Shown here: piece by piece, positions 1 through 32,328 of the stretch | Layout of the letters: every line of letters begins with the position of its first letter | Numbering within the stretch: position 1 is the stretch's first letter | Assembly: GCA_018969975.1 (NCBI GenBank) | Contig: JAGWXI010000015.1 | Location: 1-42,601, forward strand | Reading direction: 5' to 3' | Origin: Burkholderiales bacterium | Lineage (GTDB): Bacteria > Pseudomonadota > Gammaproteobacteria > Burkholderiales > Burkholderiaceae_C | Length of the DNA: 42,601 bases | Notes under the pieces: generated by a model | Seen by the model: only the letters and a program-made list of their open reading frames with translations | Database searches by the model: none | What the model was told of the DNA's origin: nothing | Made by a program: the position numbers and the translations under genes

Positions 1-219
1 GTGCTCAACGTGATCTCCACGGACGACCCCTACTTTCGGCCCGACAACCCTTGGCATGGCGATGCCAAGCAACTGTTAGATGGGCATGCTGCAGCCTTAG
101 TCAAAGGCAATCGCAAGGCGGTGATCGTATTACTCTCAGGCGCGCCGCACACACTCTATAACCTCAGCCCCGCACGCAATGCCACACAGGCTTTTCTTGG
201 CGAACTGTTACAAGGCTGA
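1..219 (+). CDS. C-terminal fragment of an unidentified protein, possibly an alpha/beta hydrolase
   Basis: An open frame runs from the first base of the window to a TGA at 217-219 (72 codons), so the gene very probably begins upstream and only its C-terminus is seen. The GTG at base 1 is not convincing as a start. The segment holds VISTDD near the N-terminal side and SGAPHTLYN near the end. This resembles the last strand, acid and catalytic histidine of alpha/beta hydrolases, but that is a weak pattern match. No domain can be assigned with confidence. A gap of about 90 bases without clear features separates it from the next gene. Confidence 0.4.
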   Translation: MLNVISTDDPYFRPDNPWHGDAKQLLDGHAAALVKGNRKAVIVLLSGAPHTLYNLSPARNATQAFLGELLQG

Positions 220-309
220 GGGGGACTGCGCAAAATTGCAAATTCAGTATGCAGCACAATGGCTTGTAGCTACGGAACACCTATAAATCTCGGCAACTAC
301 CCATTACCT

Positions 310-939
310 ATGTATACCCCTTCGCATTTCTCCTTGACCGATACCCAATCCCTGCATCGCATCATGCGCAATCACCCTTTAGGCGTTTTGGTGACATCTA
401 CAACAAGCGGCTTGGATGCTAACCACATTCCGTTTGAATTCGATGCTTCAGCAGGCAAGTTGGGTATCCTGACTGGGCATGTGGCGCGTGCAAATCCTGT
501 TTGGCAACATTGTTTGCAGGGCGCAGATGTATTGGTTATTTTTCGTGGGGATGAAGCTTACATCTCACCCAATTGGTATCCCAGCAAGCACGAAACCCAC
601 CGACAAGTTCCCACCTGGAATTACGAGGTGGTGCATGTTTTTGGGCGATTAACAGTGCGTGATGAAGAGAAATTTATGCGCAGTTTGGTTGCTAAGTTAA
701 CGCGTAAACATGAAGCGCAAGAACCCAAACCTTGGAAGATGGGCGACTCGTCCCCTGACTATATTGACGGCATGCTCAAAGCTATTGTGGGGATAGAGAT
801 AACTATTGAACGATTCGAAGGAAAGTCCAAGCTCAGCCAAAACCGAGAGGTGCGAGATCGGCATGGCGTGGTTGAAAAATTGCGCCAAAAAGGAAAAGTG
901 GCGATGGCCCAAGCGATAGAAAAAACAACAGCGCGATAA
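310..939 (+). CDS. PaiB-family FMN-binding protein (split-barrel flavin fold)
   Basis: This 209-residue protein matches the PaiB family of FMN-binding split-barrel proteins, often annotated as negative transcriptional regulators. Family features include the start MYTPSHF, the segment NHPLGVLVTS, an HIPFEFD strand, GHVARANP, the YISPNWY motif and the VPTWNYEVVHV strand that builds the flavin site, with a basic C-terminal helix. I chose the ATG at 310 because it gives the family-typical N-terminus. An in-frame ATG at 259 would add 17 residues with no family resemblance, and neither has a strong ribosome binding site. The gene is convergent with the RsaM-like gene, their stops being 17 bases apart. 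The physiological role is not clear from context. A regulatory or flavin-reductase role is inferred only from the family. Confidence 0.88.
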   Translation: MYTPSHFSLTDTQSLHRIMRNHPLGVLVTSTTSGLDANHIPFEFDASAGKLGILTGHVARANPVWQHCLQGADVLVIFRGDEAYISPNWYPSKHETHRQVPTWNYEVVHVFGRLTVRDEEKFMRSLVAKLTRKHEAQEPKPWKMGDSSPDYIDGMLKAIVGIEITIERFEGKSKLSQNREVRDRHGVVEKLRQKGKVAMAQAIEKTTAR

Positions 940-956
940 AACAATAGCGGCTTGTT

Positions 957-1346
957 TTAGTTGTTATCTGCACTTACGGCCCGCACCACATCGGTTTGCC
1001 AGATGTGAGAGTCAACCCAGGTCGCCAAAATCCGAAGATTGTCTTCCCAGACGATAGCTTGGCCGTATTTATTGAGTAACTGGATATTGGTTCGCGGCAA
1101 CTCATCGCGCTGCCAAAAGATACCCTGCTCGCGGGCCATCACGCACCAGTCCCATCCGATAGTGATAAGAAGTTCGGCCCTTGCCATCCACTCGGTGTAG
1201 CCCGTGAGAACCGTTACAGTGCCACAACGTTGGTTGATCGATAAATCAGAGAGTTCCAGATCTACAGCAGAAAAGAAGTGTTGCATGCTCAGGTTGAGCA
1301 GTTCTTCTAGTGTGGCTTGTACCAACCCCATGTTGTTCATGTTCAT
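957..1346 (-). CDS. RsaM-like protein (DUF4902), putative quorum-sensing modulator
   Basis: The 129-residue protein has no signal peptide or membrane segment. It carries a tryptophan-rich pattern that I associate with the RsaM/DUF4902 family: GYTEW at residues 49-53, GWDW at 64-67, W78, an RTNI segment at 85-88, and WVDSHIW near the C-terminus. RsaM proteins in Pseudomonas fuscovaginae and Burkholderia are small negative regulators of acyl-homoserine-lactone quorum sensing and usually sit beside luxR/luxI pairs. Here the gene lies 43 bases downstream of an AHL-type luxR on the same strand, which supports the assignment. ATG codons at 1346, 1340 and 1331 are all possible starts and none has a good Shine-Dalgarno. 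The family call is by motif memory, not alignment. Confidence 0.6.
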   Translation of the reverse strand: MNMNNMGLVQATLEELLNLSMQHFFSAVDLELSDLSINQRCGTVTVLTGYTEWMARAELLITIGWDWCVMAREQGIFWQRDELPRTNIQLLNKYGQAIVWEDNLRILATWVDSHIWQTDVVRAVSADNN

Positions 1347-1389
1347 GGAAAGCAGTATGCCCTTTTAGTTGCTTGGATTGGTTGAGCAA

Positions 1390-2103
1390 TCAACGTAACC
1401 ATCCCATGAGTATGGAACGAACCACTGCAGCAGTTTTGTTGGGGCTATTGAGTTTTTTGATGCTGTTCTTGAGATGAAAATCCACTGCACTTTTACTCAA
1501 AGTGAGGATGTCAGCAATGTCTTGCGCTGATTTGCCATCGGCAGTCCATTGGAGTACTTCTCGCTCGCGCGTCGTCAGAGGAGAGAGAGTTCGAATATCT
1601 TTTACGGTTATGGCGCGTGACAAACTGACATGCGCGACCTGCACTAGCCAACGCATTTGAGACTCTTTGGCTTGCAACTCTTCAGTGGTCAATGGTTCAC
1701 TAGAGCGGCAAAGTGTGAGCAAGCTGCCACATCCATTGACCTCTAAACTAGATTGGGCCCAACCTGCCCGTATTCCATGGTCTTGTACATCTTTCCAAAG
1801 TTTTGGGTTACTCGCAAAAGCTTGGTCACTCCATAGCAGTGGATTTTGGTTTCGTTTGCCGTGTATCACGGTGGGATCCGTGAACAGGTAACCTGCTCGG
1901 ATGTAGTGCTCTTGCCAAGAGCAGGGGTAATTGTTGAGCAATACCACCTTTGGGCGGGTGATGGGGTGGGAAGCCTGAAAACCGAAGGCTACGTGCTCAA
2001 ACCCGAGTCTGAGCGCGGCAAATTCTATGTTTGAGAATACGTCCTCTGGGGACGCGTTGGGCGCTACCAGTAAATTAAGCAGGTCCTCATGCCATGAATT
2101 CAT
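1390..2103 (-). CDS. LuxR-family transcriptional regulator with acyl-homoserine-lactone-binding domain
   Basis: This 237-residue regulator has an N-terminal autoinducer-binding domain (about 15-165) and a C-terminal LuxR HTH (about 172-235). All residues invariant in TraR/LuxR AHL receptors are present with TraR spacing: W63, Y67, D76, P77 and W91 (TraR W57, Y61, D70, P71, W85), a glycine at 110/114 for G113, and E180, L184, G190 in the HTH (TraR E178, L182, G188). It should therefore bind an AHL and DNA. The ATG at 2103 follows the stop of the DadA-like gene by 15 bases, and a GGAAG ribosome site lies in that gap, so co-transcription is very likely. No luxI synthase is present in the window, so locally it is a LuxR solo with an RsaM-like partner. 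Confidence 0.93.
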   Translation of the reverse strand: MNSWHEDLLNLLVAPNASPEDVFSNIEFAALRLGFEHVAFGFQASHPITRPKVVLLNNYPCSWQEHYIRAGYLFTDPTVIHGKRNQNPLLWSDQAFASNPKLWKDVQDHGIRAGWAQSSLEVNGCGSLLTLCRSSEPLTTEELQAKESQMRWLVQVAHVSLSRAITVKDIRTLSPLTTREREVLQWTADGKSAQDIADILTLSKSAVDFHLKNSIKKLNSPNKTAAVVRSILMGWLR

Positions 2104-2118
2104 GGACTACTTCCAAAT

Positions 2119-3348
2119 TCACGATTTTCGCATAGCTAACGCTATTTGCGTCGCAGAACCAAAGGCTAGCGTGAGGCCTAGCCCGCCATGGCCAGTATTA
2201 AAAAATAAATTCGATGGAGCGCCCATCAGACTTCCAACAATTGGAATTCCAGTGGGGGTTGCAGGCCTTAACCCAGACCAAGGCTCTTGGGCTTGAACAG
2301 AGCCTAATTTGGGAAAAATTGATGTAGTTGCTTCGGTAAGTTGATGAATTGCAGCAGTCGAGACCGTAGTGTCATTTCCAACTAATTCAGCCATTCCAGC
2401 GACGCGTAGTTTTGCGCCTAATCGCGCAAATACGATTTTGCGCGCGAAATCGGTGACATTTACAGTAGGTGCTATGGGTTGACTGTTTGCGCCCAAAGGA
2501 GGCAGATCATAAGTAACGCTATACCCTTTGAGTGGATAAATGGGCAAAGTTATTTGTAATGTTTGCGCAAGTCGAACACTACCCACTCCACCTGCAAGTA
2601 CAAAGCTATTAGCTTCTATCGTATGACTGGGGGTATGCGCAGCAACAATTTTTTGATTGGACAACTCCAAGCGGTTGACACTGTGGTTGAACAAAAATTG
2701 AACACCTCTTTGACGCAATATGCTCTCAAGTCCCTTGCATAGTGCCAAGGTATCGACAGCACATTCAGATGCCGTGTAAATACCACCGGCGATTGAGCCC
2801 GCATAGTTATCTAATGCAGGCTCCGTTGCAATACATTGCGTCGCACTCAGTGCTTCTTGGACACAACCCATGGAGCGTTGTAAAAGCATTTGTTTTTTTG
2901 CATGGAGAAAGGACTCTGATGTCTGATACAGAACAAGTTTTCCAGAATTAGAAAAATGGCAGTTTAGATTTTCTCGGGCAAGCATGGCATCAAATGCTTG
3001 ACGACTTTGCGTTGCGAGCTCCAGCAAATGCGCTGTGGTTTGATGCGCTCTTGATCGATTGCATGCTTTAAGAAATGCAATGCACCATTGCCATTGCCGC
3101 AGATCCCATTGGGGTTTGAATGTGAGTGGAGAACTGCGCGATAGCAATAGTTTGGGCAATTGGAGCCAAATAGAGGCATCCGCTAGTGGCTGAACATAGC
3201 TGTAACTAAGTTGCGCACCATTGTTGCCACTCGCACCGCAGGCAACGCTTGCTGCAGCATCAATTACTGTTACGCGAAAACCCTGCTCCGAGAGCTTATA
3301 GGCAGTACTTAAACCAACAATACCTGCACCAATGACACAAACATGCAT
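2119..3348 (-). CDS. DadA-like FAD-dependent D-amino-acid dehydrogenase/oxidase
   Basis: The 409-residue protein starts with a Rossmann FAD motif, GAGIVG at residues 7-12 followed by STAY. It has the DAO-fold features of the DadA family: a GNNGAQLSYSY segment after the dinucleotide-binding region, FVLAGGVGS, LPIYPLKGYSVTY, and a C-terminal WSGLRPATPTGIP...GHGGLGLTLA region. DadA enzymes deaminate D-amino acids to 2-oxoacids and pass electrons to the respiratory chain. The ATG at 3348 is preferred because it places the FAD motif right at the N-terminus. A TTG at 3360 overlapping the TRAP permease stop would add four residues. Its position between a TRAP permease and luxR suggests it oxidises the imported substrate. 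Sarcosine or glycine oxidase-like activity is an alternative. Confidence 0.85.
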   Translation of the reverse strand: MHVCVIGAGIVGLSTAYKLSEQGFRVTVIDAAASVACGASGNNGAQLSYSYVQPLADASIWLQLPKLLLSRSSPLTFKPQWDLRQWQWCIAFLKACNRSRAHQTTAHLLELATQSRQAFDAMLARENLNCHFSNSGKLVLYQTSESFLHAKKQMLLQRSMGCVQEALSATQCIATEPALDNYAGSIAGGIYTASECAVDTLALCKGLESILRQRGVQFLFNHSVNRLELSNQKIVAAHTPSHTIEANSFVLAGGVGSVRLAQTLQITLPIYPLKGYSVTYDLPPLGANSQPIAPTVNVTDFARKIVFARLGAKLRVAGMAELVGNDTTVSTAAIHQLTEATTSIFPKLGSVQAQEPWSGLRPATPTGIPIVGSLMGAPSNLFFNTGHGGLGLTLAFGSATQIALAMRKS

Positions 3349-3356
3349 GTCAGATC

Positions 3357-5939
3357 TCAAGTAAAACTATTATGGATTCTTCTGCCTTGGGTAGACCAAA
3401 CTAGCCAACTTAATAAAAGTGCTGGAATAAAAACCCAGTTCTGTGAAGGTCGATGGGGGTTAGGTAATTTTAGTTCTTCAATTTTGTAACCTTGCTCAAG
3501 CCCCAACTTTTTAGCGCGGCTACCAAACTTGACTTGAGAGACTTCAAGATCTGCTCCTAGTTGCGACAAAGTGACGCCAGCGTCACGCAGTCGATCTCTT
3601 CCAGTCTCGCCTTTGCCTAGTGGAATTGCAACTGTTTTAGTTTGTGGCTTCCCATCTAATGTTTCGCCGGCAATACCTACTACTAGCCATTCTTCGGCAT
3701 GGAGTGAATCAGCCACCTTATAAATATCGGAGGATGGAGCAGATACATACTTGGGCGCAAATTGATCAATCACCCAATCGGGACGGAAAAATAGAAATGT
3801 CGCAATCAAAAGAGCAATTACTTCCATCCAGGTGCAACGGGTTCGAAACCATCGCATAGTGGCAGCAGCAAATAGCAAAGAAGCAATAGTTCCTGTGATG
3901 CAAACCAGCACAACTTCTACCCAAGAACCCACACCAATCAATAAAAGTTGAGGATTAAATATAAAGACAAAGGGCAAAATGGTTGTGCGAAGGCTGTACC
4001 AAGTGGCTTGCCATCCTGTGGTGTTGGGGTCGTCACCAGAGATGGCGGCAGCTGCATAGGAGGCTAAGCCAACTGGAGGCGTCACATCGGCCATGATGCC
4101 AAAGTAAAAAACAAACATATGCACTGCGATGAGCGGAATGACTAATCCTGCTCGGGCGCCTAGCTCGACTATCACTGGTGCCATCAGGGTTGCTACCAAA
4201 ATGTAATTCGCAGTTGTTGGTACACCTGCCCCAATCAATAAACAGATGACGGCAGTCAGCAGTAGCATTACCAGCACATTACCTGCGGAGACTAATTCAA
4301 CGAAATCAGTCATCATTAGCCCCATACCAGTAAGCGTAATCACGCCAACGATAAGTCCTGCACTAGCACAAGCCACTCCTATACCAACCATGTTGCGAGC
4401 GGCTAAAACTAAGCTTTCCCAAAGGTGAAGAAGCCCTAAATAAATGCTGTGTGTAATTGTTTGTATGGTGCCATCTGGCCTAAAAATAGACAAACAAAGG
4501 GGTTGGAATAAAACCATCGCAATACTGGTCACTGTAGCCCAAAATGCCGATAAGCCTGGGGAGAGTTCTTCAACCATGAGCGCCCAAAGCAGCACCACGA
4601 TTGGAATAAAAAAGTGCAAGCCAGCGCGAACTGTTGGCCAGGGAAGCGGTAATTTAATATCTTTGCTACTAACGTCCAAATCTTCGTGGGGCAGATCAGG
4701 ATGGCGCGCAGAATAAGCCATCAGTCCAAGATAGGAAACTGTGGCCAGAGTAGCCAGAGCCCACCCAGTGAACTCTCCAGCAATCAATTGCACAGCAGTG
4801 ATTGCAAAGTAAATAGCTGCGCAAGCACCAAACGTTCCACAAAGTCCTAGTGACCATCCCAATAGGCGTTCGCGCAAGGTGGGTTGCTTAACACGCGAGA
4901 GAGGCTGTAAATCGTATTTCAGTGCTTCTAAATGCACGATATAAAAAAGGGCGATATACGAAATGAGGGCCGGTAATGCAGCGTGCTTGATGATTTCAGA
5001 GTATGGAATTCCAACATACTCCACCATCAAAAATGCTGCAGCCCCCATGACTGGCGGCATGATTTGTCCATTGATCGACGAGGCAGCCTCAATAGCGCCT
5101 GCCTTCACACCAGAATAGCCAGTGCGCTTCATCAGGGGGATAGTAAATATTCCACCAGAGACAACATTCGATACGGAGGATCCAGAAACGATGCCATTCA
5201 AAGCAGAAGAGACTACCGCTACCTTGGCGGGGCCACCTCTTAAGTGTCCGAGTGTTGCTAGCGAGACTTGGAGCATGTAGTTGCCTGCTCCAGCTTTGTC
5301 CAGCAAAGTCCCAAATAGAACAAAAAGAAAAATAAATTGAACACTAACACCAAGAGCTACGCCATACACCCCTTCCGTGGTCAGCCACATATGTGAAATA
5401 AATCGTGTGACGGAAGCGCCGCGATGCTGAATGACATCAGGCATATAGGGACCTAAAAATACAAAGGCCATGAAAAGGCCAGTAGTCACCAACATACCAA
5501 AGCCCATTGCTCTGCGTGTAGCCTCCAGCATGATCAGGACGCCCGTAGCGCCCACCACTATGTCCATTGTTGTTGGAAGCCCCGGACGCGTTGAAAGCTC
5601 TCTGTAAAACAAAAACAAATAGGCTGCGCAAAATGCGCCGACTATGGCTAGAAGCCAATCCACTAAGGGGACAACTGTGCGTGAAGATCGCTTAAACGCA
5701 GGATAAGCACAAAAAGCTAAAAATACGGCAAAAGCCAAATGGATAGCGCGAGCTTGCGTATCGTTGAAGATGCCAAAGCCAAAAGTAAAAGGTAGTGGTG
5801 ACGCATACCAAACTTGGAAAATAGACCACAGCCCAGCCGTTGCAGCTAATAAAAAACCTGCAAACCCTATGGGTTCGCGCCCACCTACATCAGACTCTTT
5901 AACAAGTTGGTCAAGAACTTCTGACTGAGATGGGCGCAT
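3357..5939 (-). CDS. TRAP transporter fused permease (4TM/12TM, TAXI type, with C-terminal DUF3394-like domain)
   Basis: An 860-residue polytopic inner-membrane protein that fuses the small DctQ-like and large DctM-like TRAP subunits, as is typical for TAXI-TRAP systems. The first ~180 residues hold four to five hydrophobic segments. The large part carries the TRAP motifs GSSVSNV, EAASSINGQIMPPVMGAAAF, GAGVPTTANY and FYFGIMADVTPPVGLASYAAAAI. The C-terminal ~190 residues, with VKFGSRAKKLGLEQGY followed by a final hydrophobic helix, match the DUF3394 extension known on these fusions, so the full length is normal. It lies 21 bases downstream of the TAXI binding protein and just upstream of the DadA-like gene. 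It should be a sodium- or proton-coupled importer of an organic anion or amino acid. The substrate cannot be read from sequence. Confidence 0.96.
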   Translation of the reverse strand: MRPSQSEVLDQLVKESDVGGREPIGFAGFLLAATAGLWSIFQVWYASPLPFTFGFGIFNDTQARAIHLAFAVFLAFCAYPAFKRSSRTVVPLVDWLLAIVGAFCAAYLFLFYRELSTRPGLPTTMDIVVGATGVLIMLEATRRAMGFGMLVTTGLFMAFVFLGPYMPDVIQHRGASVTRFISHMWLTTEGVYGVALGVSVQFIFLFVLFGTLLDKAGAGNYMLQVSLATLGHLRGGPAKVAVVSSALNGIVSGSSVSNVVSGGIFTIPLMKRTGYSGVKAGAIEAASSINGQIMPPVMGAAAFLMVEYVGIPYSEIIKHAALPALISYIALFYIVHLEALKYDLQPLSRVKQPTLRERLLGWSLGLCGTFGACAAIYFAITAVQLIAGEFTGWALATLATVSYLGLMAYSARHPDLPHEDLDVSSKDIKLPLPWPTVRAGLHFFIPIVVLLWALMVEELSPGLSAFWATVTSIAMVLFQPLCLSIFRPDGTIQTITHSIYLGLLHLWESLVLAARNMVGIGVACASAGLIVGVITLTGMGLMMTDFVELVSAGNVLVMLLLTAVICLLIGAGVPTTANYILVATLMAPVIVELGARAGLVIPLIAVHMFVFYFGIMADVTPPVGLASYAAAAISGDDPNTTGWQATWYSLRTTILPFVFIFNPQLLLIGVGSWVEVVLVCITGTIASLLFAAATMRWFRTRCTWMEVIALLIATFLFFRPDWVIDQFAPKYVSAPSSDIYKVADSLHAEEWLVVGIAGETLDGKPQTKTVAIPLGKGETGRDRLRDAGVTLSQLGADLEVSQVKFGSRAKKLGLEQGYKIEELKLPNPHRPSQNWVFIPALLLSWLVWSTQGRRIHNSFT

Positions 5940-5960
5940 ATTTTTCTGAGAAATACAGTG

Positions 5961-6935
5961 TTACTTCAACCAACCTTTTTCTTTGTAGTAGCGTATGGCT
6001 CCCTCATGCAAGGGGGCAGAGAGACCGTCTTTCATCATATTGGTGGATGAGAGGTTAGCTAGTGCAGGATGCAGTTTTTTAAACTCATCCAAATTATCGA
6101 AGACGGCTTTTGTAACTTGGTAAACCGTTTCAGCTGGAGTTTTGCTTGACACCACGACCGTAGCTAACACACCATAAGTGTTGGTTACTTGCGGGTTGTT
6201 GGGATAGAGACCGCCAGCAATGGTTGCCTTAGCGTAATAGGGTTTGTCGGCTACAAGCTTGTCCACTACCGGGCCAGTGAGTGACACTAGTTTGGCTCCG
6301 CAAGATGTAGTGGGGTCTTGGATATTGGCTGAAGGATGTCCGACACCATAAAAAAATCCATCTATCTTTCCATCACACAGTGCAGGCCCATGTTCATCAG
6401 CTTTAAGTTCCGATGCGAGAGAAAAGTCGCTCATCTTCCAACTCATAGCTTCCATCAACTCTTCCATGGATGCGCGGGTACCTGAACCTGGATTGCCTAC
6501 GTTAAAACGTTTGCCTTTGAAATCAGCCAGACTTTTGATATTGGCCTCTTTACGGGCAACAACTGTGAAAGGCTCAGGATGCACTGAAAAAACAGAGCGT
6601 AAATCTGCATGTGCGCCACCATCCTTGAAAGCGCCAAGTCCCTTACTTGCGTTGTAGCCTACGTCAGACTGGGCAAATCCAAAATCGAGCTCACCGGCTT
6701 TAATCGTGTTGATGTTGAATGCTGACCCTCCTGTGGACTCTACTGAGCAACGGATGCCGTGCTTGGAGCGGTCTTTATTGACCAAGCGGCAAATAGCACC
6801 ACCTGCTGCGTAGTAAACGCCAGTCACACCGCCGGTTCCGACAGTGACAAATTTTTGTTGCGCAAAGGAAGGCGCACTAAAGGATGAGACCAGCAAAGTA
6901 ATACTAGCAAGCACGCTTAAATTGAATTTTTTCAT
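5961..6935 (-). CDS. TAXI-family TRAP transporter solute-binding protein
   Basis: This 324-residue periplasmic protein has a signal peptide (lysines at 2-3, hydrophobic 6-20, likely cleavage after SFA near residue 25). The TAXI family signature follows: [45 protein letters not shown] and a [18 protein letters not shown] segment. TAXI proteins capture a ligand, in characterised cases glutamate or other organic acids, and deliver it to a fused TRAP permease, which is encoded directly downstream. An AGGAG ribosome site sits about 9 bases before the ATG at 6935. It begins 26 bases after the aminotransferase stop, so the uptake genes are probably in the same operon as the catabolic enzymes. Confidence 0.96.
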
Positions 6936-6961
6936 GGGGAAAGGCTCCTGATTAAAAGAAG

Positions 6962-8302
6962 TTACAAACTTTGGATGGCTGCGTCAATGGATGCCACCAA
7001 TAAACTAGCAATATCATGTATTTGTGATTCACTGGTTATGAACGGTGGCGCAAGCAGCACATGGTCACCATACCTTCCATCGACCGTTCCGCCCATGGGA
7101 TATACCATGAGTCCTCGTAACATGGCCTCGCGCTTGATACGGGAGTGAAGTTGAAATTGGGGGTCAAATGGTTTTTTAGTGTTTTGCTCTTGAACAAGCT
7201 CAATCCCCCAAAAGAGACCTCTTCCCCTTATATCGCCTAAGTGATCGCCAGCCTGTTGTGAATTTTTAAAAGATTGCAAAAGGGCTGAATTCAGCTGGTC
7301 CCCTCGGGTACGAACTTGCTCCAATAAATGGTTGTCACGGATCACATTTTGTACTGCAAGTGCAGCGGCGCAGGCAACAGGATGTCCTAGATAAGTGTGA
7401 CCATGCTGAAAAAATCCACTGCCAGCGCGCATGGCTTGCACGATAGACTGCGAAGCCAGTACCGCACCAATAGGCTGATAACCTCCGCCAAGACCCTTAG
7501 CGATGGCTAGCAAATCAGGCACTGTGTTTTCATAGGTACACGCGTGCAATGTGCCGGTTCGCCCCATGCCGCACATGACTTCATCCAAAATAAGTAGTAC
7601 ACCGTATCGGTCACAAACTTCACGCACTGCTTTGAAATATCCTGGAACAGGTGTGAGTACACCAGCGGTAGCGCCCCCAATCGTCTCGGCTACAAATGCA
7701 ATTACCGCATTTTCACCAAGAGAAATAATGGCATCCTCTAATTCTTTAGCGAGCCGCTGGCCGTATGCGAAATCCGTTTCGTCTGGCTGTTTTTCTCGGT
7801 ATGCGTAGCAAGGGGACACATGCGTGGCATCTATCAATATGGGAGAAAAGGGCGCCTTGCGCCATGCATTACCACCAACCGCAAGTGCTCCTAAGGTGTT
7901 GCCGTGGTAACTTTGCCTGCGCGCTATAAAGTGCTTACGTTGTGGCTGACCTATTTCTACAAAATACTGCCGCGCCATTTTCATTGCAGCTTCCATGGCC
8001 TCAGATCCACCGCTCACAAAATAAACATGGTCGAGGCCTGGTGGAGCGTCTGTAACCAGGCGCTCGGCGAGTTCCTCCGCTACATCGGTTGTAAAAAAGC
8101 TAGTGTGCGCATAAGCGAGTTTGTCAATTTGCGCATGCATTGCAGCTAGAACGTCTGGATACGCATGGCCAAGACAAGACACGGCAGCACCACCTGATGC
8201 GTCCAAATAACGTTTTCCTTCGGAATCTATCAAGTAGATTCCTGATCCACTGACGGCTGTAGGTGGTTTTTTTTGAAGAGACCGATGCAATACGTGGGTC
8301 AT
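6962..8302 (-). CDS. Class III PLP-dependent aminotransferase
   Basis: A 446-residue fold-type I, class III (omega) aminotransferase. The phosphate-binding [10 protein letters not shown] (97-106), YHGNT (132-136), the PLP-ring aspartate in [14 protein letters not shown] (D240) and the Schiff-base lysine in [13 protein letters not shown] (K269) are all present, so the enzyme should be active. The family moves amino groups from omega- or beta-amino acids or amines to pyruvate or 2-oxoglutarate. The motifs do not fix the substrate. Its place between a ferredoxin gene and TAXI-TRAP genes suggests that it processes the imported compound or a product of the DadA-like enzyme. Spacing to the upstream ferredoxin stop is 41 bases. 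Confidence 0.93.
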
Positions 8303-8343
8303 AAATTTACCGAGTTGCTAAGGAGATCGGCGAGAAGATACCA

Positions 8344-8673
8344 CTAGTATTGGCTAGCAGGTAAATCTACCTCCATGCCTTGCATGGCCTCTGTCACGTG
8401 AATTTGACAAGACAGACGACTATTGGGTTGACGGGTGCATGCTGCAAAGTCGAGCATGCCGTCTTCGTCGTCTGTCATAGCGGGTAATTGGCTAAACCAA
8501 GGTTCGCGCACCATGACATGACAAGTGGCGCAAGTCAATGTGCCGCCGCAGTCTGCCGCTACACCTTCGATGTTGGCAGCAACAGCTGCCTTCATCAAGC
8601 TTTGGCCGAGCTTGGCATCTAGGACGGCGCTTGGAGTGTTTTTTGTAGTTTCAAATAAAACAATTTTTACCAT
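8344..8673 (-). CDS. Putidaredoxin/adrenodoxin-type [2Fe-2S] ferredoxin
   Basis: The ATG at 8673 gives a 109-residue ferredoxin with cysteines C42, C48, C51 and C89. The spacings (6, 3, 38) are identical to putidaredoxin (C39, C45, C48, C86), and the cluster loop reads CGGTLTCATC. Upstream in-frame codons to 8712 add a sequence without family resemblance. Vertebrate-type ferredoxins carry single electrons to cytochrome P450s, Rieske oxygenases or Fe-S assembly. No oxygenase or ferredoxin reductase is present in the window, so its partner is unknown. It sits between the zinc-ribbon gene (43-base gap) and the aminotransferase (41-base gap), same strand. Whether it belongs to the catabolic unit or serves another oxygenase is open. 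Confidence 0.92.
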   Translation of the reverse strand: MVKIVLFETTKNTPSAVLDAKLGQSLMKAAVAANIEGVAADCGGTLTCATCHVMVREPWFSQLPAMTDDEDGMLDFAACTRQPNSRLSCQIHVTEAMQGMEVDLPASQY

Positions 8674-8716
8674 ATGCGTTGAGAAAAAATGGGGATGGTG
8701 CTGAGGCCACAATTTT

Positions 8717-9508
8717 TTAAGAAGTGAACTGAGTCCATTTTGTTTTGCAGTTAGGACAAGTCACTTCAATTTGCTTGAATAAATTTCCGCGACATTTTTG
8801 CCCACACTTAGGACAGGATACGATAACTTTTGCATCGCGAATCAAGGGTGCTTCGACTTGACCCATTTCAATAAATGCTGGAACACGCAAATCAAACAGT
8901 TTGGTGCTTCTGAAGTGCACCTGATAGCCTGGGCGGGGCAAACTGGTTTTAGTAATGTCGGCATCTGTTATCCATAAGGGGTTTAATTTATCGCCCAATC
9001 CTGTTGCGGTTTTGTACCAAGCCTTGGAGCACGAAGGGGCTAAAAGGTTGGCAATATCAGGCGCATCTATACGACTTTTCGCAGCACTACCGCCTAAAAA
9101 TTCACTCTGTCTTAAGTGTTCATTGAAAATGTTGACTGCATGCGAGTGGCATGAATAAGCAAAGTAGCCAAAATATAAACAACTGTCTAATTTATGGCCC
9201 AGGGCATACCATTTCAGAGTGAGGGATCGCACAATGTCTATGGCTTTAGTTGCAGTGTCGCCATCGACCAATAGCCCATCGCTAAAGCAAGCAATCAATA
9301 AAACTTTCAGAGCATTTTCAAACCCCAAGTCTTGTCGAATTCCAAGCGGATTTCCAAAGATATTTATTTGTTGAATACTCCTGTAAGCGATCTCTGTAGT
9401 GCGAAAAAATTCTGGCATCGCGTTGTGGATATTTGGTAGAGACTTCTTGAATCCTGCAATTTCATGCGGCTGAGCGCGGATGTGTTCAAACGGATAGGCT
9501 TGGGACAT
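8717..9508 (-). CDS. Uncharacterised protein with C-terminal zinc ribbon
   Basis: I do not recognise the family. The 263-residue protein is soluble, with no signal peptide, and its N-terminal ~225 residues match nothing known to me. The segment 65-125 is helical-looking and fairly hydrophobic (LKVLLIACFSDGLL, LYFGYFAYSC). The C-terminus is a clear four-cysteine zinc ribbon, C232-x2-C235 and C251-x2-C254, of the type found in many small DNA-, RNA- or protein-binding modules. The ATG at 9508 lies 3 bases after the J-domain gene stop, so the two are almost certainly translated from one message and may act together. Confidence 0.75.
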   Translation of the reverse strand: MSQAYPFEHIRAQPHEIAGFKKSLPNIHNAMPEFFRTTEIAYRSIQQINIFGNPLGIRQDLGFENALKVLLIACFSDGLLVDGDTATKAIDIVRSLTLKWYALGHKLDSCLYFGYFAYSCHSHAVNIFNEHLRQSEFLGGSAAKSRIDAPDIANLLAPSCSKAWYKTATGLGDKLNPLWITDADITKTSLPRPGYQVHFRSTKLFDLRVPAFIEMGQVEAPLIRDAKVIVSCPKCGQKCRGNLFKQIEVTCPNCKTKWTQFTS

Positions 9509-9511
9509 AAC

Positions 9512-9976
9512 TTAGCTCTCTAAATGGGCAACAATTTTTGTTTTTAAGCCGACAAAATCAAAAGTGACTTTATTTTTTTCAATAACCGTGCTGTACGTGT
9601 TTATCCATCCTGTGTGTACTTTGACTTTGCAATCAAATAGCTCTTCAAAAAGTGTAATCATGCCAACTTCATCGATGCCATTTCTTTTAATCTTTTGCAC
9701 CAGATCTTTATGCAGTTCATCTTTGGTTGGTGCGCTACTTTGCCTTGAGTGTTTGCTAGTGTGGGCGCTGAATTTTTCATCGTAAGCTTGTCTGCGCGCT
9801 TTGGTTTTTAAAGACGCAAAAGCCACATTCAATTCCGCCATCACCTTTTGTGCGTGACTGATGTCTCCCTTGTATTTATCGGGGTGGTATTTTTGGGCCA
9901 GGGCTTTGAATGCGGCTTTGATCACTACATCATCTGCACTTGAAAGTAGTCCTAAAGTTTTGTAATGGTCCTGCAT
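9512..9976 (-). CDS. J-domain (DnaJ-like) co-chaperone with a short private C-terminal domain
   Basis: This 154-residue protein opens with a J domain: YKTLGL at 5-10, the KALAQKYHPDK helix II with the HPD motif at 31-33, then ELNVAFASLKTKARRQAYDEKF at about 48-69. It has no Gly/Phe region, zinc-finger domain or CTD, so it is a class III J protein that should recruit DnaK/Hsp70 to a specific client. The linker (70-85) is Ser/Lys-rich and the C-terminal ~70 residues match nothing I know. The ATG at 9976 faces the divergent membrane/coiled-coil gene across 131 bases. The partner is presumably the zinc-ribbon protein 3 bases downstream. Confidence 0.88.
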   Translation of the reverse strand: MQDHYKTLGLLSSADDVVIKAAFKALAQKYHPDKYKGDISHAQKVMAELNVAFASLKTKARRQAYDEKFSAHTSKHSRQSSAPTKDELHKDLVQKIKRNGIDEVGMITLFEELFDCKVKVHTGWINTYSTVIEKNKVTFDFVGLKTKIVAHLES

Positions 9977-10107
9977 AGTTCAAGTATCGACAAAAAAAGC
10001 CTTAATTTAATGGCATTCCAACTCTTTTTTGATGCGGGTCACATTGCACAGGTTAACCGCTTGGGAGTTTGTATAGACTAAGAGTATTACTGCTTTCGAT
10101 ACGGCGC
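9977..10107. promoter_or_regulatory. Divergent intergenic region with GGTTAACC palindrome
   Basis: These 131 bases separate the divergently read J-domain gene and membrane/coiled-coil gene, so promoters for both directions are expected here. A perfect 8-base palindrome GGTTAACC lies at 10051-10058. TTGGGA at 10061 and TATTAC 18 bases downstream is a possible weak sigma70-like pair for the plus gene. No well-scoring promoter can be asserted from the sequence alone. Confidence 0.35.
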
Positions 10108-11547
10108 ATGTCATTCTTTGCTAATTTGATGAAAAATCTCAAGTCTTTTAAAGGATGGTTTTCCAGCAAAAAGCCTGAGCCAACGCTTGAAGTTACGGTT
10201 ATTACAAAGCAGTTCAACCTGCTTGAGGAAGCTAGAAAACTAGGTGAGCTTGGCCTGCCCTCTTTTCACAGCAAAGCCATAACAGCTACAGAGCAAGAAG
10301 TTGTTCGCTATATAGAGGGCGTAAGAGAACACATTCAAATACAAACACTTGCGGATTTGGATCGAATGGATCGTTTGATCCATGAGTCCCAAGTACATGA
10401 ATACGACCTAAAGCCTGATATTTTGTCGGCTGACTTTGAGCGTAAAGCCCTGATTATTTTCAATGAACAAAATGCCTGGTTACAAAAGTTAGGCACGATT
10501 GCAAATCGTCGATTCAAGGAGCTTGAGAAATTTCGAGCACTCCATCAACTAGAAAGAGATGCAATCTACCCGGATGGGACAGGCCTTTTCTTTCGTTATG
10601 CCTTGCTTGTTCTATTGGTCACTTTTGAAGGTGTATTTAATTCTGCCTTTTTTGCCGAAGGACTGAGCACAGGATTATTAGGTGGATTCTTTTATGCTGT
10701 TTCGCTAGCAAGTATCAATGTGTTGACCGCTTTTATTTTGGGAAAAACAGCTGTGCGCTGGATATTCCATACCAAGCCGGCATTGAAGTCTTTGGGTCTA
10801 GTAGCACTGGGCTTAACTCTTGGATTTATTGCAAGCATGGCCTTGGCTATTGGGCATTTGCGAACAGCCATACTCATGGAGAGCGCAAATCCTACGCAAG
10901 ATGCTTGGCTGGCTTTAGTCCATAGTCCTTTGGGGTTGAATGATTTGGTCGCTTGGATTTTGTTCTTGGTCACTATTGGTTTTGGACTTGCTGCATTGAT
11001 GGATGGTTTATTCATCGACGATTTATATCCAGGCTATGGCGCCATTACCCGCAGAGAAAAGCAAGCTTGCGAAGAGTTTGAAGAGGAGTTTGAAGACGTC
11101 CGCGTTTCTTTAGAGGAAGTAAAACAAGAAAATATCGATGCTTTGGACGATGAGATTCAAAGGGCTAAGCAATTTGCCGCGCGGTTTAGGCAACAAATTG
11201 AAGACAAGAAAGCTATTTTTCAGTCTTGGATGCAAAAACTCAACGAATCTGAGGTTGCCCTCTATGCCTGTTTGCGAATTTTTAGAGCCGAAAACAATAG
11301 GCATAGAAAAGATGCGCTTCGACCTGCGTACTTTGATACTCTTCCTGTGCTCAGAAAGGTCGCCATTGAAAAACCAGACTTGTCTGCATACGAGCAAGCC
11401 CATACGCATTTGCAGGAGCGCATTAAATTACTCGAAGACAGCTTGCCTAGTCGTAGAGAAAAAATTTACAAACTTTTCGATCGCCATGTTGAGCAGCTCA
11501 ACTTCATTCAGCATCCGCCCACACTTTCAAGAAGAGACGCGGTCTAA
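10108..11547 (+). CDS. Uncharacterised inner-membrane protein with coiled-coil C-terminal domain
   Basis: I do not recognise the family. With the ATG at 10108 it is 479 residues (a TTG at 10069 would add 13). The first ~160 residues are polar and helical, rich in Glu/Lys/Arg. Roughly 160-305 hold four to five membrane segments (YALLVLLVTFEGVF, GGFFYAVSLASINVLTAFIL, LGLVALGLTLGFIASMALAI, LVAWILFLVTIGFGLAALM). The ~170 C-terminal residues are strongly charged and helical (EEFEEEFEDVRVSLEEV onward), typical of a coiled coil, and are probably cytoplasmic. Its stop overlaps the next ATG as TAATG, so translation of the two is coupled. The layout suggests a membrane scaffold for a multi-protein assembly; that is inference. 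Confidence 0.78.
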   Translation: MSFFANLMKNLKSFKGWFSSKKPEPTLEVTVITKQFNLLEEARKLGELGLPSFHSKAITATEQEVVRYIEGVREHIQIQTLADLDRMDRLIHESQVHEYDLKPDILSADFERKALIIFNEQNAWLQKLGTIANRRFKELEKFRALHQLERDAIYPDGTGLFFRYALLVLLVTFEGVFNSAFFAEGLSTGLLGGFFYAVSLASINVLTAFILGKTAVRWIFHTKPALKSLGLVALGLTLGFIASMALAIGHLRTAILMESANPTQDAWLALVHSPLGLNDLVAWILFLVTIGFGLAALMDGLFIDDLYPGYGAITRREKQACEEFEEEFEDVRVSLEEVKQENIDALDDEIQRAKQFAARFRQQIEDKKAIFQSWMQKLNESEVALYACLRIFRAENNRHRKDALRPAYFDTLPVLRKVAIEKPDLSAYEQAHTHLQERIKLLEDSLPSRREKIYKLFDRHVEQLNFIQHPPTLSRRDAV

Positions 11548-12353
11548 TGGCTCGTAAAAGTAAAGTCGCACGTAGTCGTCAGCGCAGTAATATTTTTTTT
11601 GGAAGCATGGCTTTGTTGCTGGTTATTTTTGTAATGGGAACTGCAGCTTGGTGGTGGAATCAAAAAAGAAATGCAATTGACCCCAAAACGCTGTGTCCAC
11701 TTCATGGACCCCTGGGGCACAACATTTTGCTGGTTGATAAAACCGATCCATTGAATCTTGCGCAAAAGGCGGCCTTTGATCTTCTTGTAACTGATTTGGT
11801 TTCTAATAAAACGCCGCCAGGGTTTTTGTTGTCGATCTTTGTTCTTGGCGATAACTTTGTAGCGCAAAACAAACCTTTGGTTGAGTTGTGTAATCCAGGT
11901 GATGGCAAGGGACACAACGAGCTGACTGAGAACATCAAGCAACTCAACCGAATGTACAAAGACCGATTTTTAAACCCAATTTTTGAGCAAAGTACGCAGC
12001 TCTTGAGCATTGCTCCAGCCCAAGAATCCCCCATATTAGAAATGTTGCAAATGGTGAGTTTGAACGCAATTCAAAAGCACCATGTCGATGGCCCAAAGAC
12101 ACTCATCATCTTGTCTGACTTACTTCAAAACAGCAAGCAACTCAATATGTACAAGGGGTTGCCCAATTTTGCGCAATTTACAAACACCCCCTATGCACAG
12201 AAAACCAAGATCCATTTTCAAGAGGTTGATATTCAAATCCACTATCTGCAAAACAGTCCCCAATTACAAGGTGAAGGGCTCTTTCTTTTTTGGCGGGAGT
12301 ATTTCAAAGCCGCTGGATCTAAAAGCGTTGCTTTAGTTGCCCTACCTGGTTGA
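11547..12353 (+). CDS. Membrane-anchored von Willebrand factor A-like protein
   Basis: A 268-residue protein with a basic N-terminus, one transmembrane anchor at about 17-36 and a periplasmic-looking domain. The domain begins with NILLVDKTDPL (59-69), resembling the first metal-binding loop of a vWA fold (D64, T66, D67), and has a later hydrophobic strand ending in aspartate, TLIILSDLLQNS (185-196), with SPILEMLQ between them. I therefore call it vWA-like, though the MIDAS motif is DxTD rather than the classic DxSxS. C50 and C115 could form a disulfide. The start codon overlaps the upstream stop (TAATG). No enzymatic activity is predicted; vWA domains usually mediate protein contacts. Confidence 0.7.
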   Translation: MARKSKVARSRQRSNIFFGSMALLLVIFVMGTAAWWWNQKRNAIDPKTLCPLHGPLGHNILLVDKTDPLNLAQKAAFDLLVTDLVSNKTPPGFLLSIFVLGDNFVAQNKPLVELCNPGDGKGHNELTENIKQLNRMYKDRFLNPIFEQSTQLLSIAPAQESPILEMLQMVSLNAIQKHHVDGPKTLIILSDLLQNSKQLNMYKGLPNFAQFTNTPYAQKTKIHFQEVDIQIHYLQNSPQLQGEGLFLFWREYFKAAGSKSVALVALPG

Positions 12354-12383
12354 TTAGTCGCGATAATGGGACAGGAGCTTTTT

Positions 12384-31842: not shown

Positions 31843-32328
31843 ATGATCAAAAGTCAAAAAGACTTTTTCTCTGGATTGATGTTTGCTGCCATTGGCGGTG
31901 CATTTGCATGGGGGGCTACCAATTATTCTGTTGGAACGGCTGCCCGCATGGGACCAGGATACTTTCCTTTGTTATTAGGAATTTTGCTTGCCGCTTTGGG
32001 TTGCTTTATCGTCTTCTACTCCTTGGTTGAGCATGCAGAAGACGGTGACAAAGTAGGTAGTTTTGCTTGGCGCCCTGTTGTTTATATTTTGGGAGCCAAT
32101 ATTGCCTTTGGCATTTTGTTAGCAGGCTTACCCAGTTTGGGACTGCCGCCAACAGGTTTGATTGCGGGCATTTACGCTTTAACCATCATCTCTAGTAGGG
32201 CTGGCGATGTTTTCAACCTCAAGGAGGTTCTGATACTCGCTACCTTTCTGTCTGTTCTGAGCTATCTCGCATTTATCAAATTATTGAATTTGCAGATGCC
32301 AGTGTGGCCCTCGTTCATTACTGGTTAA
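31843..32328 (+). CDS. tctB: TctB-family small subunit of tripartite tricarboxylate transporter
   Basis: A 161-residue membrane protein with four hydrophobic segments. The family signature is in the first half: AIGGAFAWGATNYSVGTAARMGPGYFPLLLG. An AAGGAG ribosome site precedes the ATG. TctB partners with TctA in secondary transport of citrate-like dicarboxylates or tricarboxylates. The gene lies 17 bases upstream of tctA. No tctC (binding protein) is found on either side. Confidence 0.93.
   Translation: MIKSQKDFFSGLMFAAIGGAFAWGATNYSVGTAARMGPGYFPLLLGILLAALGCFIVFYSLVEHAEDGDKVGSFAWRPVVYILGANIAFGILLAGLPSLGLPPTGLIAGIYALTIISSRAGDVFNLKEVLILATFLSVLSYLAFIKLLNLQMPVWPSFITG

Follow-up and report, generated by a model that had tools for sequence, protein, structure and literature searches.

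The stretch of DNA analysed here (the window) covers the 42,601 nucleotides of contig JAGWXI010000015.1 (C27) in assembly GCA_018969975.1 of a Burkholderiales bacterium, an assembly of 2.72 Mb in 167 contigs that is 89.42% complete and 3.66% contaminated. On its minus strand, at the 3′ end of an apparent catabolic operon, lie a luxR gene and an rsaM-like gene with no luxI beside them. LuxR solos are widespread, and their origin and targets are often unclear. For this one, we propose that the solo was born by loss of luxI from a complete quorum-sensing cassette, that its likely target is an operon elsewhere in the genome headed by a 2-oxoglutarate- and Fe(II)-dependent (2OG-Fe(II)) oxygenase gene, and that the catabolic operon may set the dose of the receptor; we give this reading a probability of roughly 0.55.

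The luxR gene (1390..2103, 237 amino acids) encodes a protein with an autoinducer-binding domain (PF03472, 112 bits, E 2.3e-32) and a GerE helix-turn-helix (HTH) domain (PF00196, 61.5 bits, E 5.8e-17), both above cut-off. Six pocket residues (W63, Y67, D76, P77, W91 and G114) and three HTH residues (E180, L184 and G190) are invariant across 14 aligned sequences including the window LuxR. They correspond, by spacing and motif, to W57, Y61, D70, P71, W85, G113, E178, L182 and G188, which are given in TraR numbering as the invariant residues of acyl-homoserine lactone (AHL) receptors in the sections consulted of PMC4338825 and PMC10134790. By its domains and pocket residues the protein is a predicted AHL-type receptor, as a preliminary description of this DNA had it. 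Its nearest relative is 72% identical, the solved structures that best match its sequence are RhlR variants and the quorum-sensing control repressor 3szt, and its best NCBIfam match is SdiA (137 bits, cut-off 350). No second gene with an autoinducer-binding region turned up in the assembly, where the one further match is confined to residues 172-228, the HTH. Between the window luxR and four relatives, the proportions of nonsynonymous (pN) and synonymous (pS) differences are 0.17-0.22 and 0.74-0.80, similar to complete systems, and by this measure the gene shows no sign of decay. The rsaM-like gene (957..1346, minus strand, 129 amino acids) adjoins luxR, 43 bases behind it. The search against DUF4902 bears out its proposed family (PF16245, 62.1 bits against a gathering score of 25, E 5.9e-17), and the protein also matches the solved BCAM1869 (4o2h, E 4.6e-4) and is 57% and 46% identical to the rsaM products of genomes G385 and G087.

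The relatives of this pair point to the kind of cassette from which it came. A LuxR-alignment scan of named-species genomes gave 315 relatives, and the DNA around the best 80 was compared over as much as 10 kb on each side (shorter where a contig ended). Among these 80, luxI lies near 64 and rsaM near 47; 46 have both genes, 18 have luxI only, 15 have neither, and a single locus close to a contig end (L175) has rsaM only. Where both are present, rsaM and luxI stand together and point away from luxR in 23 of the 46 loci, luxR, rsaM and luxI follow one another in one direction in 15, and 8 are arranged otherwise. A tree of 23 LuxR rows, comprising 21 hand-picked from the 80 relatives, G385 and the window, and leaving out the luxR of genome G253 and 14 other rows, places the window LuxR in a seven-row group with support of 100/100. 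The other six members are L155, L156, L157 (genome G407), L158, L159 (genome G087) and G385 (loci L081 and L280), and all have luxR-rsaM-luxI in one direction, with further genes between rsaM and luxI in G385. Because it groups at this support with six complete cassettes, the window pair is identified, on phylogeny and gene order, as a putative type 4a luxR-rsaM-luxI cassette minus luxI. The luxR-rsaM spacer (1347..1389) is alike in four of the six members: the window's GGGCATACTG recurs in L155, L158 and L081, AGGCATACTG stands in L157, and the spacers of L156 and L159 are only partly alike. This GGGCATACTG ahead of rsaM could be a -10-like element, hence an rsaM promoter of its own, a suggestive possibility only.

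The place that luxI holds in the relatives is occupied in the window by a convergent gene on the plus strand (259..939) for an FMN-binding protein (PF04299, E 1.2e-65), which we take to be of the PaiB type. Its stop codon and that of rsaM are 17 bases apart, which leaves no room for a luxI remnant. The absence of luxI that had been noted for this locus extends to the assembly: a PF00765 search gives 0 matches in the 2.72-Mb, 89.42%-complete assembly. Although 14 control genomes are silent too, the search itself works, matching 61 of 399 family genomes (44 over cut-off). At one of the 64 related loci counted as having luxI, L161 (genome G065, 2098-2884), the luxI match runs over two frames beside a 53%-identical luxR; this genome may be a second relative without a working synthase.

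A trace of the missing gene may survive at another locus. Upstream of luxI, an inverted repeat near ACCTACY-N6-RGTAGKT occurs in 47 of the 64 luxI upstream regions, and a matrix built from its 32 distinct sites gives leave-one-out scores of 14.3-28.2 and, in each of seven loci on which it was tried, all from the training set, scores the luxI box highest. In the window genome, the box AACTACCGTATTTAGTAGCT scores 19.4 and lies on contig C2 (G000:C2:10422-10441), between groEL and a 2OG-Fe(II) oxygenase gene; four simulated 2.72-Mb genomes held 1, 0, 1 and 0 sites of at least this score (mean 0.5). The order there is groEL, an inverted repeat with a T run, the box, 63 bases and the ATG of the oxygenase gene, and in six close relatives the distance from box to luxI ATG is 61-66 bases. 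Compared with five LuxI starts, the start peptide MYQFSIGTSQQFQ has 6, 8, 8, 7 and 6 of 13 positions in common; the maximum in 2,551 other 13-residue peptides that begin at an ATG, taken from 103 kb of the window genome, is 6 of 13, in four cases. At the DNA level, likeness to the luxI start is 26 of 36 with L158 and L155, 25 with L081, 24 with L156, 23 with L159 and 20 with L157. The protein continues from residue 13 as a 2OG-Fe(II) oxygenase (PF13640), and a homologue on a Massilia forsythiae plasmid, 52% identical, aligns only from that residue. The simplest reading would be a replacement of luxI behind groEL in which the oxygenase gene captured the luxI promoter and first codons.

The oxygenase is found in 1 of 84 genomes of the genus and in two of 35 genomes picked for their luxR or luxI genes, namely the window genome and G253. 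The gene that follows it, inside which the contig ends, is 66% identical to a Massilia protein encoded two genes past the Massilia oxygenase. A by-eye call of this gene as a desaturase was dropped and the gene left unnamed, as Pfam gives no match for it, nor for its Massilia and G253 homologues; these homologues are weakly like the amino-acid hydroxylase model NF041365 (55 and 48 bits, cut-off 380). In the Massilia plasmid cluster (NZ_CP051686), another gene stands between the homologues of the two C2 genes and nonribosomal peptide synthetase (NRPS) genes then follow, so that the cluster combines a 2OG-Fe(II) oxygenase with NRPS genes. It differs from the C2 locus in having no such box in the surrounding 20.6 kb, where the best score is 3.2.

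The position behind groEL recurs among the relatives. In G407, of the same genus, a luxR-rsaM-luxI cassette follows groEL directly, and in G385 and L158 the cassette follows a second, 3′ groEL piece just behind the full groEL. Among 11 genomes inspected after groEL, a box above 19 lies within 6 kb in G407, G385 and the window genome, and no box above 11.0 was found in the 6 kb after groEL in G455, G439, G080, G184, G399, G189, G087 and G447. In the two closest genomes, G455 and G439, which lack an insert, groEL is followed by an opposite-strand gene (a transaldolase gene in G455). The C2 groEL is single copy in the window genome and its product is 100% identical to that of G455 and 99% to that of G439, so contig C2 belongs to this genome; contamination was rejected for the locus on these grounds, and its GC content is 0.51. 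It looks as if quorum-sensing islands land at the 3′ end of groEL, carrying or duplicating a piece of it. Extra 3′ groEL pieces stand at either end of the G385 island (L280, 1252-2832, 3940-4752 and 12236-13258); they share 97% identity with the window genome's protein, and in L158 (4792-6372 and 7514-8326) one such piece precedes luxR. After luxI, G385 (L081, 12861-15222) carries genes for a methyltransferase-like protein and for an iron-containing redox enzyme (PF14518), which makes the cargo of its island different from that of the window genome. The same locus holds a second, short rsaM-like stretch right before luxI (L081, 11783-11902, 53% over 40 residues) and two copies of the lux box, at 10278 and 11985, a trace of duplication lying between rsaM and luxI.

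The operon genes fit their first description: seven genes of the named families, all on the minus strand, with gaps of 43 bases or less. From the upstream end, they are a 2Fe-2S ferredoxin (8344..8712, TTG start, first ATG at 8673; Fer2 PF00111, E 1.6e-7), a class III aminotransferase of the PRK07483 type (6962..8302; NF005685, E 2.7e-232), a TAXI-family solute-binding protein (5961..6935; TIGR02122, E 1.2e-100), a TRAP transporter fused permease with DUF3394 (3357..5939; TIGR02123, E 2.3e-212; PF11874, E 6.8e-59) and a DadA-like FAD amino-acid dehydrogenase or oxidase (2119..3360; DAO PF01266, E 1e-66), followed by luxR and rsaM. The DadA-like protein scores 387.6 bits against the D-amino acid dehydrogenase subfamily NF001933 (cut-off 383). 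The gaps are 41 bases between ferredoxin and aminotransferase, 26 between aminotransferase and TAXI and 21 between TAXI and TRAP; the TRAP and dadA genes overlap by 4 bases (dadA TTG start) or are 8 apart (ATG at 3348). The luxR ATG indeed lies 15 bases past the dadA stop, and the junction (2104..2118) contains a ribosome site, GGAAG, six bases ahead of the ATG. Upstream of the ferredoxin, a gene with only sub-cut-off zinc-ribbon-like matches (8717..9508) lies on the same strand 4 bases ahead of its TTG and is a possible member of the unit, and a DnaJ-domain gene (9512..9976; PF00226, E 1.3e-14) could be its first. Since these two further minus-strand genes abut the ferredoxin gene, the unit may start near 9976.

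The setting of this operon was compared with one genus mate, G080, with which the window is syntenic from 12,366 to 42,224. Of the 23 genes compared between 13,058 and 42,224, all but g23514 and g37444 have G080 counterparts in the same order (21 genes, 52-94% identity), and the G080 gene next in line agrees with the gene at 12,366 in 77 of 140 residues; on this ordered agreement, the window as contamination was rejected. None of 12 genes tried from 1-12,353 has a match in the 96 kb of G080 around the syntenic place, and the other G080 stretches compared hold only distant relatives of the FMN-binding (33%) and DadA (32%) proteins. This comparison therefore places the catabolic operon, luxR and rsaM on a predicted accessory segment, defined relative to G080 and no shorter than 12.3 kb. 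That segment also includes the DnaJ-domain gene, the protein that is weakly zinc-ribbon-like and two genes without Pfam matches (10069-11547 and 11547-12353). Across the 84 genus genomes searched, the best DadA match outside the window genome is 37% identical, and full-length LuxR relatives occur in two other genomes, G407 (68%) and G447 (53%).

Under the reading we prefer, the luxR-rsaM pair would be the regulatory half of a Limnohabitans-like cassette, its synthase gone, that now stands at the 3′ end of a catabolic operon. The LuxR solo would bind AHLs from other bacteria and activate the oxygenase operon through the C2 box, and RsaM would damp LuxR as it does in complete systems. Read-through from the catabolic operon, from the DnaJ or ferredoxin gene to dadA, would set the dose of LuxR, and likewise that of RsaM unless rsaM has its own promoter. 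Metabolism would then tune the receptor, and the receptor would not control metabolism. A bolder version, in which the whole arrangement is an eavesdropping circuit, with luxI swapped for an oxygenase operon that keeps the luxI promoter and start codons and with receptor and RsaM placed under a nutrient-uptake operon, is tentative and on balance doubtful.

Several observations weigh against the preferred reading. Score alone does not single out the C2 box. A pattern search of the window genome gave 126 matches (at most 2 mismatches, both strands) against 345 for a reversed control pattern and, because they are fewer than the control's, these are mostly chance matches. Three of the 82 sites listed among the 126 score above 18, and C46:9228 (20.5, inside an FlhB-family gene) and C75:13680 (18.8, within a LysM-domain gene) score about as high as the C2 box; both were set aside as LuxR targets because they lie within coding frames, and it is location, not score, that sets the C2 box apart. 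Shuffled sequence reaches 18-24 of 36 matches to the luxI start in 120 shuffles, a range that overlaps the 20 of L157. The matrix leaves 17 of the 64 luxI regions outside it, with best scores from 19.8 down to -4.3. Saturation of pS would mask a recent loss of constraint on luxR. The assembly is 89% complete and contig C2 ends at 11,714, so that a luxI beyond this end or in a gap is possible. As to the joint expression of receptor and operon, which the preliminary description had proposed, the two parts of the evidence diverge: a scan of the 15-base dadA-luxR junction gives 0 promoter or terminator matches, and the final 110 bases of dadA contain two same-strand matches that resemble terminators (2228-2212 and 2184-2163). 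The terminator scan is at chance overall (13 found, 10.3 +/- 3.8 expected) and the promoter scan below it (3 against 11.7), and the case for possible co-transcription from ferredoxin to rsaM is mixed, drawing on spacing only.

The preliminary description had also suggested that the LuxR made with the operon controls it, so that uptake and oxidation of amino compounds answer to an AHL or a related amino-acyl compound. The shared strand and the 15-base gap with its ribosome site favour this, and LuxR solos of the plant-associated bacteria (PAB) type, such as PipR and OryR, adjoin peptidase and transporter genes in the part of PMC10134790 consulted. However, the lux box of this LuxR group is absent from 900-10,200 of the window, where the best score is 4.9 against 14.3-28.2 for the training sites and 19.4 for the box after groEL. 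Control of the operon through an own-group box was rejected on this score; the 17 luxI regions without training sites imply other operators in the LuxR family, which a search of the operon with this matrix may overlook. Across all 42,601 bases, the top-scoring site (14.6, at 32,181) falls in the range of the best sites of 30 simulated windows, whose maxima average 12.1 and reach 17.8. Relatives of the window's dadA, TRAP, TAXI, aminotransferase and ferredoxin genes lie near none of the 80 best LuxR relatives in the DNA compared (10 kb or less on each side), so conserved dadA-luxR synteny, as a check of gene order in related genomes, was rejected too. Among the matches listed, one further genome, G253 of another genus of the family, has dadA close to luxR: a dadA homologue (56%), a TctC-type binding protein, luxR and a second luxR stand in a row (L235, 10973-18090), and its genome gives no luxI match. 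This parallel speaks for control of the operon, but likeness in the first G253 luxR begins only at residue 18, and a lux-box-like site (13.1) lies behind that gene, between the two luxR genes, where the congener G318 has a box (18.9) and luxI. A few kb from the G253 row lie genes related to the oxygenase gene and to the one next to it (39% and 33% identity), and the 5 other genomes of that genus lack the oxygenase. With only two such cases, the joint occurrence of dadA, luxR and oxygenase in genomes that give no luxI match may be a recurring theme or may be chance. The pocket of the window LuxR is, moreover, of the AHL-receptor kind and not changed as in XccR and OryR. Control of the catabolic operon by LuxR has no sequence support here, and we regard it as unlikely.

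It is less likely again that the pair is a recently stranded, functionless remnant, left behind dadA by chance and not yet decayed. The arrangement is seen in the window genome only, and luxI is missing or broken beside related luxR genes in G253 and at L161, which speaks for it, but both window genes are intact with all key residues, the window and L155 have the lowest pN (0.166) of ten luxR pairs compared, and a box-bearing promoter that fits this LuxR type exists elsewhere in the genome. Least probable in our view is an ordinary LuxI/LuxR circuit with scattered genes, its luxI lying in unassembled sequence, for example past the end of C2. The 89% completeness and the end of C2 1.5 kb after groEL would allow this, and the consulted text of PMC10710839 describes, for type 6b and 7 circuits, luxI at 2-18.5 kb from a divergent rsaM-luxR pair and luxR at 3-33 kb from an rsaM-luxI pair. 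Against it stand the 0 luxI matches in 2.72 Mb and the fact that, behind groEL, the luxI-like promoter and start run into another protein.

Known systems resemble the window in part. Cassettes of type 4a in the classification of PMC10710839, as at the loci of Limnohabitans radicicola (L159) and L. lacus (L156), share its LuxR group and the order and direction of luxR and rsaM, and have a similar spacer; in contrast to them, the window has no luxI after rsaM and has the pair behind a dadA operon, and a luxI-like promoter stands before a different gene at another locus of the genome. The same paper describes type 6a, in which a LuxR solo occurs with rsaM in Pelomonas, Thauera, Kinneretia, Albitalea and Xenophilus; it is like the window in having rsaM beside an AHL-type luxR and no luxI. 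Type 6 genes run in opposite directions, however, whereas the window pair is in tandem, and a tandem luxR-rsaM without luxI is not among the eight RsaM types described in section 4 of PMC10710839. The window resembles PipR and OryR in having a probable LuxR solo beside transport and amino-compound genes. According to the portions of PMC10134790 and PMC4338825 consulted, the pocket residues of XccR and OryR are changed and PAB solos adjoin a proline iminopeptidase gene, whereas the window pocket is of the AHL-receptor type and none of 10 scanned window genes encodes a proline iminopeptidase. The window LuxR has an AHL-type pocket and no synthase gene in the assembly, and in this is like SdiA and the other class B solos, which sense AHLs of foreign origin; it differs in scoring below the SdiA cut-off, in having an RsaM partner and in deriving, as we propose, from a complete cassette. 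In the open-access PMC papers searched, we found no report of a luxI promoter captured by another gene, nor of a LuxR solo that ends such a catabolic operon.

The window and C2 loci offer a case in which the source cassette, the missing synthase, a luxI-like promoter before another gene and a receptor behind an operon can all be compared side by side. The box after groEL provides a testable target for a LuxR solo, and the pair is a case for asking what RsaM does when there is no synthase to restrain. The place behind groEL would be a recurrent landing site of quorum-sensing islands in Limnohabitans and a related genus. If the eavesdropping circuit were true, a self-amplifying loop would have been rebuilt into an output, and only cells that import and oxidise amino compounds would hear foreign AHLs.

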